A stretch of DNA of 64,000 nucleotides from Halorubrum cibi (GCF_900182635.1 NZ_FXTD01000005.1:124001-188000), one strand, 5' to 3'. Counted from the first letter of the stretch, positions 35,886 through 49,565 are shown. The notes: generated by a model not told the origin, from the sequence alone. Numbers and translations: made by a program.

Positions 35886-37091
35886 ATGGGACGATTCCAC
35901 GGGCGGCGATCGCGGGAGACGGTGTCCTACGAGCCCGCGAGCGTCAAAGAGCTCCTCGTGGAGATGAAGGACACCGCGGAGCTCCTCATCGACTTGTCGT
36001 ACTCGGCGGTGCTTCACGCCAGCCCCTCGGTCGCACGCGAGGTCGTCGAACTCGAACACCGGATGGACGTCCTCCAGATGCGCGCCCGGATGAGCCTCAT
36101 GCTCGCGGCGCGAAACCCCAACGAGGCGGAGACGCTCGCACCCGTGCTCGGCGTCGTCGCCGCCGCGGACAAGGTGTCCGGAGCCGCCGGCGACATCGCG
36201 AAGATCGTGATCGAGGAGATCGGGCTTCCGGAGGCGATGCGCGGCGCGCTCACCGAGGGCGTCGAGACGCTCGTCCGCGGCACCGTCGCCGACGAGTCGA
36301 CCTACAGCGGTCGAACGCTTCGGGACGTCGATCTCGAATCCGAGACGGGCGTCCGGGTGATCGCCATCCATCGCGGAGACGACTGGATCCTCAACCCCGG
36401 CCCGACGACCCGACTGAAACGCGGCGACGTGACGCTGCTTCGGGGGCCGGAGGGCGGCGTCGCGGAGGTACATCCGACGCTGACGGGCGAGCCGTTCGAA
36501 CTCGACGACGCGCCGGAGCCCGCGATCGACGACCTCGAGCGCGCGGTCGATTCGATCGTGTTGATGAAGAACCTCTCCGAACTCGCCGTCGATCTGGCCT
36601 ACGGCTCCGTGCTCTTCGACAACGAGGAGCTCGCCGAGGAGGTGAGTAACCTCGAGATCGAAGTCGACGCGCTCCAGTCGCGGTTCGAGGCGTGGACCCT
36701 GCGAGCGGCCAAGGAGGCGGAGGACCCGGTTTCGCTTCGGGGGCTCATCCACCTCGGGGTCGCGACCGAGGAGATCTCGGACGCCGCCCTCCAGATCACC
36801 GAGGGCGTGATACGCGACATCGGCGTCCACCCCGTCGTCGAGATGGCCGTCAAGGAGTCCGACGAGATCATCACCCGAACCCGGGTCGGTCGCGGCAGCG
36901 AACTCGCCGGAACTCGGATCGAAGCCGGCGTCCCGGCGACCGAGATCGCCACGAGCGTGCTCGCCATCCGCCGCCCCGACGAGGGGTGGCTCGTCGGCCC
37001 CGACCTCGACACCACGATCCGCGCCGGCGACGCGATCATCTCGAAGGGGACGCGGACCTCCGCCGCGGAGTTCGCGGCCCTGGCGACGTGA
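35886..37091 (+). CDS. PhoU-RCK_C-PhoU-RCK_C protein, probable K+ channel/transport regulator
   Basis: A 401-residue soluble protein with two similar halves. Each half has a PhoU-like helical domain (~15-110 and ~205-300) followed by an RCK_C/TrkA_C domain (~125-195 and ~325-395). The repeats are visible as MKDTAELLIDLSYSAVLH versus MKNLSELAVDLAYGSVLF, and as GRTLRDVDLESETGVRVIAIHR versus GTRIEAGVPATEIATSVLAIRR. RCK_C domains bind ligands such as c-di-AMP or ions in K+ channels. No membrane segment is present, so it must act with another protein. Its stop overlaps the GTG of the next gene (GTGA). Confidence 0.9.
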   Translation: MGRFHGRRSRETVSYEPASVKELLVEMKDTAELLIDLSYSAVLHASPSVAREVVELEHRMDVLQMRARMSLMLAARNPNEAETLAPVLGVVAAADKVSGAAGDIAKIVIEEIGLPEAMRGALTEGVETLVRGTVADESTYSGRTLRDVDLESETGVRVIAIHRGDDWILNPGPTTRLKRGDVTLLRGPEGGVAEVHPTLTGEPFELDDAPEPAIDDLERAVDSIVLMKNLSELAVDLAYGSVLFDNEELAEEVSNLEIEVDALQSRFEAWTLRAAKEAEDPVSLRGLIHLGVATEEISDAALQITEGVIRDIGVHPVVEMAVKESDEIITRTRVGRGSELAGTRIEAGVPATEIATSVLAIRRPDEGWLVGPDLDTTIRAGDAIISKGTRTSAAEFAALAT

Positions 37092-45362: not shown

Positions 45363-45635
45363 CTACCCGCCGCTTACCGGCGGGAACAGCGCGAGCTCGT
45401 CGCCGGCCTCGAGGACCGTCTCCATCCCCTCCTCGTGGTGGACGTTGCTCCCGTTGCGGAGCACGTTGATGTGATCCGCCACCTCGCCGTCCTCGAGCAC
45501 GCGGTCGCGAAGGTCCGGATGCGCCTCGAGCAGGGCCTCGAACGCGTCTCCGACCGTGTCGCCCGGTTCGGCGTTCACCGCAACGACGCGGTCGCCGGCG
45601 ATCTCCGCGAGGTCCGCGAACAGCTTCCACTCCAT
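45363..45635 (-). CDS. samp1: small archaeal modifier protein 1 (ubiquitin-like)
   Basis: A 90-residue beta-grasp protein ending in Gly-Gly (FPPVSGG), which is the conjugation and thiocarboxylate site. It starts MEWKLFADLAEIAGDRVVAV. SAMP1 acts both as a ubiquitin-like modifier (through UbaA) and in molybdopterin synthase sulfur transfer (MoaD-like). This fits the moaB gene at 23 kb. It is upstream of dhs on the same strand with 91 nt between, and downstream of the RCK pair with 25 nt between, but on that side the genes run in the same direction only as neighbours. Confidence 0.93.
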   Translation of the reverse strand: MEWKLFADLAEIAGDRVVAVNAEPGDTVGDAFEALLEAHPDLRDRVLEDGEVADHINVLRNGSNVHHEEGMETVLEAGDELALFPPVSGG

Positions 45636-45660: not shown

Positions 45661-46974
45661 TTAGCGTTGTGTCACGTCACCGCCCGGCGATCCGCTCTCG
45701 GCGTCCGTCGCGTCGTCGACGTTCGCCGAGTCGTCGGCGCCGATCGCGGAGTCCGACCCCGCGTCGTGGGGTTCCTCCCCGCTTCCGCCCTCCTCGACGC
45801 GTCTCGCGTCCGCCTCGAACCGCCGGATCGCGTCCGGGCGCCCGACGAGAAACGCCGTGTCGCCGGGCGCGAACGCGTACGCTCGACGCGGGATCGGCTG
45901 GACCGATCCGTCGGCGGGTCGGACCGCGGCGACGACCGCGCTCACCTCGCCGACGGTCGTACCGACGAGTTCGCTCTCCGCCTCGACGGTCACCGTCGCC
46001 ATCGTCTCGTCGGCGTTGCGGAGCAGCGAGGCGAACTCGCGGTCGGCCTGCGGCTCCGCCGGGAGCGTCACCAGCCGGTAGCCGCCCTCGGACGAGAGCG
46101 CCTCCGCGTCCGACTCGTCGAGCGCGACCGTGGCGGCGTCGCCGGCGACGCCCCGGAGCTCCCCGGTCGCGACGCGCTCCGGCTCGGGCTCCGCCCGCCA
46201 GATCTGGACCATGTCGCCGGCGGTCGCGTTGTTCGGCGGGTCCGCGGAGAGCGCGACCGCGACCCGGCCGGGCGCGAGCGTCGGGCCGAGCCCGGTCACC
46301 CGCGAGCCGACCGCGAAGTACTCGAGCGTGCCGTCCTCAGCGACGTCGACGTCGACGTAGCCGACCCCGTAGTCCGTCTTCACCCGCTCGACGAGCCGCT
46401 CGCGGAGCTGTTCGACCGTGAGGCCGCGGGCGAATATCAGCGTCCGCTCGGCCATCTCGGCCTTCTTCTCGGGAGTGACCGGCTCGTAGGTGTCCATGTC
46501 CTCGATCTCGTCGGTGGCCGGCAGCGTCACGGGCGTCATCCGGCCCACGGTCCTGACGAACCGGCTCATCTCGCCCTCGATGCCCTTCATCCCCGACAGC
46601 GCGAAGACGTCGACCGCGAGCCGGTCGCCCCCGTACCTGCCCGCCGGGGAGACGACCGCCGCGAGCGCGAGCGCGGCCACGTTGAAGACGACGGTCTCGA
46701 CGGTGAGCAGCTCCGCGGTCTCCGTGCTGACGAGCGCGCCGAGCGACGTGGTGTTGAGGTACAGCGCGACGATAGAGACGCCGAGTAAGACCGCGACGCC
46801 CTCCGGGATCGCCGCCCGGAAGTACCATCGGTAGACGAGCGCACCCGACGCCGAGGCGACTACGGCGAGGACCGCGAACGTGACGAGCGTGATCGCCGCC
46901 GCGCGCGGGTCGCCGAAGTTCACGGCGTTCGCGGCCGCCCTCGCTCCGGCTCCGGAGAGAACGACTGCCGTCAC
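45661..46974 (-). CDS. membrane protein with TrkA_C/RCK_C domain, paralogue of its upstream neighbour
   Basis: A 437-residue protein. Three helices at the N-terminus (~residues 22-110) are followed by a ~90-residue domain (DEIEDMDTYEPVTPEKKAEMAERTLIFARGLT) that also occurs in the neighbouring protein. Two RCK_C-like parts follow (~230-300, VTGLGPTLAPGRVAVALSAD; ~310-390, VTVEAESELVGTTVGEVSAVV), then an acidic Ser/Asp tail. There is no RCK_N (Rossmann) domain and no channel filter. The GTG start overlaps the upstream stop (GTGA), so both paralogues should be made together, probably as a heteromeric complex linked to K+ or other ion transport. Confidence 0.85.
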   Translation of the reverse strand: MTAVVLSGAGARAAANAVNFGDPRAAAITLVTFAVLAVVASASGALVYRWYFRAAIPEGVAVLLGVSIVALYLNTTSLGALVSTETAELLTVETVVFNVAALALAAVVSPAGRYGGDRLAVDVFALSGMKGIEGEMSRFVRTVGRMTPVTLPATDEIEDMDTYEPVTPEKKAEMAERTLIFARGLTVEQLRERLVERVKTDYGVGYVDVDVAEDGTLEYFAVGSRVTGLGPTLAPGRVAVALSADPPNNATAGDMVQIWRAEPEPERVATGELRGVAGDAATVALDESDAEALSSEGGYRLVTLPAEPQADREFASLLRNADETMATVTVEAESELVGTTVGEVSAVVAAVRPADGSVQPIPRRAYAFAPGDTAFLVGRPDAIRRFEADARRVEEGGSGEEPHDAGSDSAIGADDSANVDDATDAESGSPGGDVTQR

Positions 46975-48269
46975 GCCGCCACCTCCCCGAACCGATCGAG
47001 GGCGTCGCGGGTGCCGACGACGAACAGCTCGTCGCCCGCCGAGAGCGACTGGCTCCCGCTCGGCGCAACGGTCCACTCAGCGTCGTGTCGCGCCGCGAGC
47101 ACCGCGACGTCGTACGCCTCCCGGACGCTGATCTCGCCGATGGTGTGACCGTCGAGCGCCCCGCCGGCGACGACGCTCACCTTCCGGAACCGCTTGCCCG
47201 CCCGACGAAGCAGCGTCGTCAGCTCGAACTCCCGACGCGTCCCGCGCGAACACACGAGGACCCGCCCGCGACCGGCCCGCAGCAGCGGGCCCGCCTCCGA
47301 GCGGTCAACCGCGACGGTCACGCGACCCTCGCCGCCCGTCGTGGTCCTCGCCGTCGGAGTCGGTGCGGGGGCCGGCGTCGCCGCCGGATCGCCGCCGTCG
47401 GTTCGGGGGTCACCCGCCCGTCCGTGCTCCGGCTGTGAACCCGCCTCCGGACCGTCGCCGTCAGCCCCGACCGCGCTCGAGACGCCGGGGTCGGCGGCGG
47501 AGTTCCCGCCCGACCTCGCCGCCAGGAGCGTTCCCTCGACCGCGAGGTCGGGCGTGAGGACCCTGACGACGTCCCCGCGAGCGAGTCCGGTCGGCACGAG
47601 CGCGGGGACCGATACGGCCCGTTTCCCCTTCGGGACGCGCTTGGAGAGCCCGCCCGTCGGCGGGGCCGCCGCCACCGTCGCCCGGGCCTCCTCGTCGATT
47701 CGGACGCTCACGTCGACGAGCTCGAGCTCCGTCTTCAGCCGCTCCGCGAACCGTGTCTCCAGCTCCTCGAGCGGCACGTCCGCGGGGAACGTCCACTCGC
47801 CCTCGGCGATCGCTCGTCGAGTCTCGGCGGGTAGCGGCGGGTATCCCTCCATGTCGCCGACCTCGCCGGCGACGGTGACGCGCACCTGACCGCGCCCGCC
47901 GACGAGCTCGACGACGTCGGTCGAGAGGGTGCGCTCGCGGAGCTTCCGGAAGGAGACGCGTTTGGGAACGTTCGAACCGAGTTTGTCGCCCTGTGCGTGC
48001 GCGTACAGCGAGAGCATCAACACGACGAGGATCGCCGTGAGGATCGCCGGCGCGCGGTCGGAGCTGCGGATCGTCTCGTCGTTCAACGCGAGCAGTCCGC
48101 CGTTCACGCCCGCGATCGCCAGCGCGAGCGCCACGACCCCGAGTCCGGGGATCGTCACTCCGGTGAAGTACTTGAAGATGAACCCCAACACGCCGGCGAT
48201 CAGCGCGGGGATGATCCCCGTGAGGACTCCCAAGTAGATGCCGAACAGAATCTCGACGGGCAGAGCCAT
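46971..48269 (-). CDS. membrane protein with TrkA_C/RCK_C domain, first gene of a paralogous pair
   Basis: A 432-residue protein with three N-terminal helices (~5-100, EILFGIYLGVLTGIIPALIAGVLG), the shared cytoplasmic domain (GEVGDMEGYPPLPAETRRAI, ~140-200), a middle linker rich in Gly/Pro/Thr (~270-315), and a C-terminal RCK_C domain (SVVAGGALDGHTIGEISVREAYDVAVLAARHD). No RCK_N and no TVGYGD-type filter are present. GTTTAAC on the minus strand about 25 nt before the start is the likely TATA box. It is divergent from a channel that has RCK_N but no RCK_C, across a 129-nt gap. Confidence 0.85.
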   Translation of the reverse strand: MALPVEILFGIYLGVLTGIIPALIAGVLGFIFKYFTGVTIPGLGVVALALAIAGVNGGLLALNDETIRSSDRAPAILTAILVVLMLSLYAHAQGDKLGSNVPKRVSFRKLRERTLSTDVVELVGGRGQVRVTVAGEVGDMEGYPPLPAETRRAIAEGEWTFPADVPLEELETRFAERLKTELELVDVSVRIDEEARATVAAAPPTGGLSKRVPKGKRAVSVPALVPTGLARGDVVRVLTPDLAVEGTLLAARSGGNSAADPGVSSAVGADGDGPEAGSQPEHGRAGDPRTDGGDPAATPAPAPTPTARTTTGGEGRVTVAVDRSEAGPLLRAGRGRVLVCSRGTRREFELTTLLRRAGKRFRKVSVVAGGALDGHTIGEISVREAYDVAVLAARHDAEWTVAPSGSQSLSAGDELFVVGTRDALDRFGEVAA

Positions 48270-48398
48270 ACCCGGACAATTTCCGGAGCGGTTAAACCAG
48301 TACCGCCGCCGGCGCGGCCGTCACCGACCGCGCCGACGCGCGTCGACTCCCGCGCCGTCCGCGAGGGGTTTAAGTCCGGTGTCGGTCACCGGGTGTCT
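48270..48398. promoter_or_regulatory. divergent promoter region between RCK_C membrane pair and K+ channel
   Basis: TATA-like boxes face both ways: GTTTAAC (minus, 48291-48297) for the membrane pair and GTTTAAG (plus, 48368-48374) for the channel. Both are at leaderless distances, so the two units can be controlled together. Confidence 0.55.
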
Positions 48399-49565
48399 AT
48401 GGAGCGGACTCGCGAGTGGGTCTCGGTGCGCGCCTCGGTGATTCTGACGTTCGCCGTGGCGCTCCTCTCCATCGTCGTCGGGCTGTTACACATCAGCGGC
48501 TTCAGCGTTCAGGGCCCGCTCTCGCCGTACATTCCCGAACTCATCCGGCGGACCGTCGGCTTCACCGGGACGATCACCGGCTTCGCGATGCTCGGGAGCG
48601 GGTTCGCGCTCAGGCGAGGGTATCGCGTCGGCTGGCGCTCCGCGGCGGTCCTGCTCCCGTTGACCGCGATCCAAGGGCTCCTCCAGGTGTCCGTTTTCTC
48701 GCTGCCGTTGGTCGTGCTCTCTCTCGTCTCCGTCCCCGCGCTCGTGATCAACCGGGGACGGTTCGACCGCCCGTTCACCCCATCTCCGACGCAACTCGCC
48801 GCGGCGGCGGCGCTCGCGGCCGCCATCTCGTACGGCACCCTGGGGTCGTACGCGCTCCGCGACGAGTTCGGAAGCGTCGACACGCTCGTCGACGCGTTCT
48901 ACTTCACCGTCGTCACGGCCTCGACGGTCGGTTACGGCGACGTGACGCCGGACACACAGATAGCCAAGCTGTTCGTCCTCTCCGCGCTCGTGATGAACGT
49001 CGCCGCCTTCGCGGTCGCGCTCGGGGTCCTCCTCACGCCCGCCATCGAGGCGCAGCTCTCCAAGGCGCTCGGAAAGATGACAGAGAAACAGTTCGACCTC
49101 CTCGACGGCCACGTCCTCGTGTTGGGAACCGGGGACCTGACGGAACCGATACTCGAAGAACTCGCGAAGCGGGACGGCGTCGAACACGCCGTCGTGACGA
49201 CCGACGAGACCGCCGCGCGGCGGCTCGACGAGCGGTCGATACCCGTGCTGACCGCGGACCCGAGCGACGTGGAGCCGCTCCATCGCGCGCACATCGAGGA
49301 CGCCCGCGCCGTCGTGGTCGCGACCGACGACGACGCCCGCGACGCGCTCGCGATCCTCACCGCTCGCCAGCTCAACCCCGATGTTCGGATCGTCGCGGCC
49401 GCGACCCAGCGGGAGAACATCGACAAGCTCCGCCGGGCCGGTGCGGATCAGGTCATCTCGCCGGCGACGCTCGGCGGCCACATCCTCATCGACTGCGCGT
49501 TCGGCGAGAACGGCGAGTCGATGGCGGGGCTCGTCGACGACGCCTTCGACTCCGGGGCGGAGTAG
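48399..49565 (+). CDS. K+ channel-like protein with RCK_N domain but no RCK_C
   Basis: A 388-residue protein. Four helices in the first ~115 residues are followed by a two-helix ion-channel pore (~125-215) with the K+ filter TVGYGDVTPD near residue 180. Then comes the Rossmann RCK_N domain (~228-360: GHVLVLGTGDLTEPILEELAKR, VLTADPSDVEPLHRAHIEDARAVVVATDDD). The protein ends about 25 residues after RCK_N, without the usual RCK_C ligand-binding domain. The missing domain type is present in the divergent membrane pair. It probably conducts K+ and senses NAD(H) or another nucleotide. Confidence 0.9.
   Translation: MERTREWVSVRASVILTFAVALLSIVVGLLHISGFSVQGPLSPYIPELIRRTVGFTGTITGFAMLGSGFALRRGYRVGWRSAAVLLPLTAIQGLLQVSVFSLPLVVLSLVSVPALVINRGRFDRPFTPSPTQLAAAAALAAAISYGTLGSYALRDEFGSVDTLVDAFYFTVVTASTVGYGDVTPDTQIAKLFVLSALVMNVAAFAVALGVLLTPAIEAQLSKALGKMTEKQFDLLDGHVLVLGTGDLTEPILEELAKRDGVEHAVVTTDETAARRLDERSIPVLTADPSDVEPLHRAHIEDARAVVVATDDDARDALAILTARQLNPDVRIVAAATQRENIDKLRRAGADQVISPATLGGHILIDCAFGENGESMAGLVDDAFDSGAE

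Follow-up and report, generated by a model that had tools for sequence, protein, structure and literature searches.

A Kch-type channel gene, an obligate pair of RCK_C membrane proteins and SAMP1 share a conserved haloarchaeal locus

Haloarchaea keep molar K+ in the cell, and little is known of its control. Here we analyse a locus in a 64,000-nucleotide stretch of DNA from Halorubrum cibi (NZ_FXTD01000005.1:124001-188000; the window, from whose first letter positions are counted), in which the gene of a Kch-type K+ channel faces two overlapping genes for paralogous membrane proteins, which we denote A and B, followed by the gene of SAMP1. The channel combines a pore with an RCK_N domain, and A and B carry RCK_C domains; an earlier reading of the sequence (the original prediction) took this division for a channel split over three proteins. 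We find that the locus is real and that the split is unlikely, as genomes that lost the pair retain the channel in unchanged form. We propose, with a probability of about 0.5, a Kch-type channel and, independent of it, an obligate membrane complex of A and B that senses through RCK_C and shares its operon with SAMP1, all perhaps serving one K+/stress pathway.

Organization of the locus

The features of the locus are as follows.

48399..49565, + strand: Kch-type K+ channel, 388 amino acids (aa); region of six transmembrane helices (6TM); TVGYGD pore (Ion_trans_2, residues 146–212); RCK_N/TrkA_N (residues 239–355); without RCK_C
48270..48398, no strand: divergent intergenic region of 129 bp, with a TATA-like box each way, GGTTTAACC (− strand, toward A) and GGGTTTAAG (+ strand, toward the channel)
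46971..48269, − strand: pair member A (P0001), 432 aa; helices 5–36, 42–63 and 73–100; DMEGYPP domain ~126–203; β-barrel ~204–253 and 307–340; RCK_C 359–432
45661..46974, − strand: pair member B (P0002), 437 aa; helices 23–52, 58–82 and 92–127; DMDTYEP domain ~144–212; β-barrel ~213–306; RCK_C 323–392; variable acidic tail
45363..45635, − strand: SAMP1 orthologue, 90 aa; ubiquitin-like β-grasp; C-terminal end LALFPPVSGG; 25 bp 3′ of B

The reading frames of A and B share 4 bp (GTGA), the start of B lying over the stop of A, and the operon runs past position 45661 into the SAMP1 gene, which had escaped the original prediction. The TATA-like boxes were read by eye and are not a statistical promoter call; A/T-rich boxes judged comparable in the same way are present in most of the other loci inspected. 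A scan for bacterial promoters and terminators returned no matches, as expected with an archaeal host.

The channel has a pore and RCK_N

The channel gene begins with an ATG at 48399, and its stop codon ends at 49565. Pfam profiles match Ion_trans_2 over the segment that holds TVGYGD (E = 9 × 10−14) and TrkA_N behind it; TrkA_C was not found by Pfam, and just 33 residues lie beyond TrkA_N, in agreement with the earlier description of a channel that ends before RCK_C. By its pore, filter and domains the protein is a Kch-type K+ channel, for which K+ conduction is predicted. Among family models, that of Kch matches it best (NCBIfam PRK10537; E = 9.5 × 10−55, model positions 84–381 of 403), with a score of 186 bits that is far under the equivalog cut-off of 425; the channel is therefore a relative of Kch, not the same protein.

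Escherichia coli Kch functions with this same domain set, a pore and RCK_N without RCK_C. An RCK_N-only channel is thus not unusual, and the premise that RCK_N and RCK_C usually lie in one chain overlooks Kch, whose RCK domain structure (1ID1; a 153-residue chain) aligns to channel residues 269–370, that is, to the RCK_N region only. A separate observation concerns genome G128, where a 183-aa RCK_N-only open reading frame lies just upstream of a same-direction channel (locus L175, 3796–5502).

A and B are paralogous membrane proteins with RCK_C domains

A has a TrkA_C (PF02080) match at residues 364–428 (51 bits, Pfam) and B one at residues 326–388, whose 26.0 bits fall just under the cut-off of 27. 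TrkA_C was matched in 24/24 aligned orthologues of A and in 26/26 of B, the latter reaching E = 6.4 × 10−9. The two proteins are paralogous over their length (BLASTP E = 2 × 10−15; hhalign E = 6.9 × 10−26 across 350 columns). AlphaFold2 models built from these 24 and 26 orthologues consist, for A and B alike, of three N-terminal helices, an α/β domain that we denote the DM domain, a β-barrel region and RCK_C. Their mean predicted local distance difference test (pLDDT) scores are 69 and 76 and their predicted template modelling (pTM) score is 0.32 each, so that the domains are usable and their arrangement is not. Foldseek matched the RCK_C of A with PH0236 (1VCT), KhtT, BusR and MthK (root-mean-square deviation 1.0–1.4 Å over ~71 residues to 1VCT and MthK), and that of B with MthK and KhtT. 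Domain searches, models and pairwise comparison thus agree with the original prediction in describing a divergent, overlapping pair of paralogous three-helix proteins that have RCK_C and neither RCK_N nor a selectivity filter. Elsewhere in the window, 35922–37091 (+) encodes another RCK_C protein without RCK_N, with two PhoU and two TrkA_C matches.

The ~90-residue domain with the motif DM(D/E)xYxP that A and B had been said to share is real (the DM domain), although the β-barrel segment behind it had not been separated from it. The DM domain is unmatched in Pfam, NCBIfam and Protein Data Bank (PDB) profile searches. The barrel region of B matches the SMUBP-2 1B barrel (E = 4 × 10−6), a hint of a β-barrel fold and not of function, and RcpC/CpaB (PF16976) gives weak matches below its cut-off in 11/24 A (best E = 0.014) and 2/26 B (best E = 7 × 10−4), a lead for the barrel only. 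In BusR and KtrA, the RCK_C pocket for cyclic di-AMP (c-di-AMP) is a hydrophobic pocket with a polar rim at the cleft of the RCK_C dimer (PMC8517857). Aligned with Staphylococcus aureus KtrA, A appears to keep the hydrophobic positions and a Pro, and has Ser381 and Ala389 in place of the polar Asp and Asn; in B, residues are missing from this region. The genome encodes a diadenylate cyclase.

The helices are the most conserved region of A, with a mean major-residue frequency of 0.83 and 32/100 positions invariant, among them Lys33 and many of Gly, Pro or aromatic type. They exceed RCK_C in this respect (0.74; 9/74 positions invariant), which suggests that their membrane role is more than anchoring. 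Such conservation would suit a pair that is itself a transporter or channel, a heteromer of 3 + 3 helices regulated through its C-terminal RCK_C domains and linked to the Kch-type channel by no more than location. Ion transporters commonly end in RCK_C, and the second pairs described below lie far from any channel. Speaking against a transporter or channel, the helices of A and B have no family match in Pfam and NCBIfam scans of A, B and their aligned orthologues, each chain has just three of them, and those of B are much less conserved than those of A (0.64). We consider that the pair could be a transporter or channel in its own right, at rather long odds.

Distribution of the pair and its linkage to the channel

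We surveyed 145 Halobacteria genomes (E ≤ 10−5) and placed the best listed matches on loci. A was found in 122 genomes and B in 119, and all 145 gave a channel match. Pairing is obligate: in 129/130 loci the gene directly downstream of A is B, and the one remaining locus is at a contig end. Searched against 247 genomes sampled across the phylum, the B profile matched 35 genomes of the same order and two others, the match in the latter covering no more than RCK_C; the A/B family is found in Halobacteria only. An apparent A–B fusion in genome G089 (an 847-codon open frame) was rejected, A and B being separate genes at locus L156. Halorientalis salina carries a tandem duplication of the pair, A B A B SAMP1 (L155, 9995–15090), and a contig labelled Halobellus captivus (L152) has a Halorubrum-like gene order with 86–90% identity to the window, and is possibly mislabelled or transferred.

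The pair is present in 117 of the 143 haloarchaeal genomes with a listed channel; the other 26 have the channel without the pair. In 102/117 pair-bearing genomes the distance from pair to channel is 6 kb or less, and in 100 the two are divergent, an adjacency that spans 37 genera, two same-strand cases included. The three-gene locus is thus conserved, and independence of pair and channel, proposed at the outset as evidence against a joint complex, is found not in most genomes but in about a third. Pair and channel are apart in 15/117 genomes, one of them a contig-end case.

Divergent second pairs (~34% identical) occur at L102–L105, L107–L116 and L126–L130, beside genes for a HerA-like ATPase, a PilB-type ATPase, DUF7311, DUF7382 and MinD/ParA or Cdc48-like proteins, and with neither the channel nor SAMP1 nearby. 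Their first member (A′) has no detectable TrkA_C, and the second (B′) has a weak TrkA_C in some. As these pairs occur without this channel, the A/B architecture can work without it.

The channel persists unchanged without the pair

If the channel drew an essential RCK_C from A/B, then pairless channels would not be expected, or they would have an RCK_C of their own; neither holds. All ten channels scanned from pairless genomes consist of the pore and TrkA_N without TrkA_C, and the longer one at L172 (449 aa) adds only a Gly/Ser-rich tail. In three different genera, short decayed fragments of A or B lie between the channel and SAMP1, with no intact pair (L158, 6221–6409; L159, 5709–6038; L160, 6517–7187), indicating that the pair was once present and decayed while the channel persisted. 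Channel conservation is also about equal whether the pair is present or absent, in RCK_N (0.73 vs 0.73) and in the pore (0.73 vs 0.71), as compared over 22 pair-bearing and 15 pairless sequences after thinning; a few positions separate the two groups at or above the permutation limit, and these are confounded by phylogeny. Because the form of the channel is unchanged where the pair has been lost, the pair is not its missing half, and we reject A/B as an obligate RCK_C donor.

The original prediction had gone from complementary domains, a shared promoter region and the coupling of the pair to one channel complex of three proteins, with A and B contributing the RCK_C domains that make the channel's RCK_N gating apparatus complete. 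Much of what motivated it stands: the domain sets in the window are complementary, the pair is inseparable and, across many genera, divergently adjacent to the channel, and this adjacency is retained more often than that of the neighbouring HPP/Usp gene. What does not stand is the supply of RCK_C to the channel. A partner chain is missing from 26/143 channel-bearing genomes, some of them with remnants of the pair, and no channel scanned there has gained RCK_C; the conservation of the channel is independent of the pair; 14 genomes carry both genes apart, the contig-end case excluded; and Kch of E. coli is functional with just these domains. Solved structures, moreover, show RCK_C dimerising with RCK_C rather than with an RCK_N from a different chain. 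A single complex of channel, A and B is therefore unlikely.

Synteny and the wider gene block

Only the channel, A, B and SAMP1 of the window's neighbourhood remain together outside Halorubrum-like loci. Many genera have the locus embedded in a longer block of conserved genes (DeoC, DUF63, nucleoside phosphorylase, HPP/Usp, channel, A, B, SAMP1; seen at L144, L148, L150, L151, L154 and L155), which makes synteny weaker evidence than it appears. The linkage might then be no more than an ancient arrangement of genes preserved on haloarchaeal chromosomes, without shared function, as would fit the recurrence of the block genes in 5–6 of 8 non-Halorubrum genera and the adjacency of HPP/Usp to the channel in 71/92 genomes. 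Set against this explanation, both outer flanks have been replaced in Halorubrum and channel–A–B–SAMP1 kept together, and 20 genomes in which the pair has moved away or decayed still have SAMP1 divergent from the channel. Of 80 genomes with all three genes, 75 preserve the channel–pair link and 64 the channel–HPP/Usp link, and discordant genomes favour the former by 13 to 2, uncorrected for phylogeny. We doubt that gene order alone accounts for the locus; the pair has an excess of linkage over HPP/Usp, yet much of the linkage may stem from inherited order, with counts that are uncorrected for phylogeny.

SAMP1 accompanies the pair

The product of 45363–45635 (−) aligns over its full length with Haloferax volcanii SAMP1 (3PO0; E = 1.2 × 10−26), belongs to the ThiS family (E = 2.6 × 10−15) and ends in a di-glycine (VSGG), identifying it as a SAMP1/MoaD-type modifier. 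SAMP1 follows B in at least 91/117 pair-bearing genomes (85 among the matches listed and 6 more) and stands immediately next to the channel, in divergent orientation, in 13/26 pairless genomes; where pair and channel are apart, it lies beside the pair in 7 genomes and beside the channel in 7. A Haloferax-like genome (L191) has the complete channel–A–B–SAMP1 locus, with a SAMP1 99% identical to the solved Haloferax protein. We found no report linking SAMP1 with K+ channel genes in a search that most subscription papers lay outside, and TrkA, potassium and channels are unmentioned in a 2010 survey of archaeal ubiquitin-like gene neighbourhoods (PMC2948915). A conserved haloarchaeal K+/stress module in which the channel and the transmembrane/RCK_C complex are controlled by SAMP1 or control it, for example by SAMP1 being conjugated, during oxidative stress, to the pair or to the channel, is improbable.

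A proposed independent complex beside the channel

We favour, at roughly even odds, a Kch-type channel alongside a separate A/B complex. The channel would be self-sufficient, with RCK_N as its only RCK domain, and A and B would form an obligate, haloarchaea-specific heteromeric membrane complex. The three helices of each chain would anchor it in the membrane or help to line it, with the DM domain, β-barrel and RCK_C in the cytoplasm. The RCK_C domains of A and B would most likely form the usual RCK_C dimer with each other, and this dimer may bind a small ligand, a nucleotide or an ion, and thereby switch the pair's own membrane part. SAMP1 and the pair would be expressed as one operon. Their common location with the channel points to a single K+/osmotic or redox-stress pathway, in which the pair may act beside the channel or modulate it as an optional accessory, rather than as a structural half.

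Two points weigh against this proposal. The AlphaFold models of A and B have low pTM and cover single chains only. Pair and channel are adjacent in a high proportion of pair-bearing genomes, and the 13 genomes that keep the channel–pair link and lose that to HPP/Usp, with 2 showing the reverse (uncorrected for phylogeny), mean that adjacency to the channel is kept more often by the pair; a relation closer than a shared pathway is thus possible.

The A/B family, widespread in Halobacteria and found only there, with no described function, is a clear candidate for haloarchaeal K+ control. The presence in its operon of SAMP1, a much-studied ubiquitin-like protein of archaea, offers a new place to seek the targets of SAMP1, and one testable in Haloferax, for which a samp1 deletion strain exists (PMC6267482).

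Comparison with known systems

The channel resembles E. coli Kch in its 6TM topology and in having a pore followed by RCK_N only. MthK, a K+ channel gated by Ca2+ and having a full RCK, is the best solved relative of its pore and RCK_N (E = 1.8 × 10−32, residues 138–364) and differs in having two transmembrane helices and an RCK_C in the same chain, whereas this channel ends ~24 residues past the aligned part. PH0236, KhtT and BusR, the top fold matches of A, share with A and B an RCK_C without RCK_N; KhtT is the regulator of a separately encoded K+/H+ antiporter. In contrast to these soluble proteins, A and B are three-helix membrane proteins with two more cytoplasmic domains. The downstream gene product has the 90 residues and the LALFPPVSGG end of H. 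volcanii SAMP1 (3PO0, 2L83).

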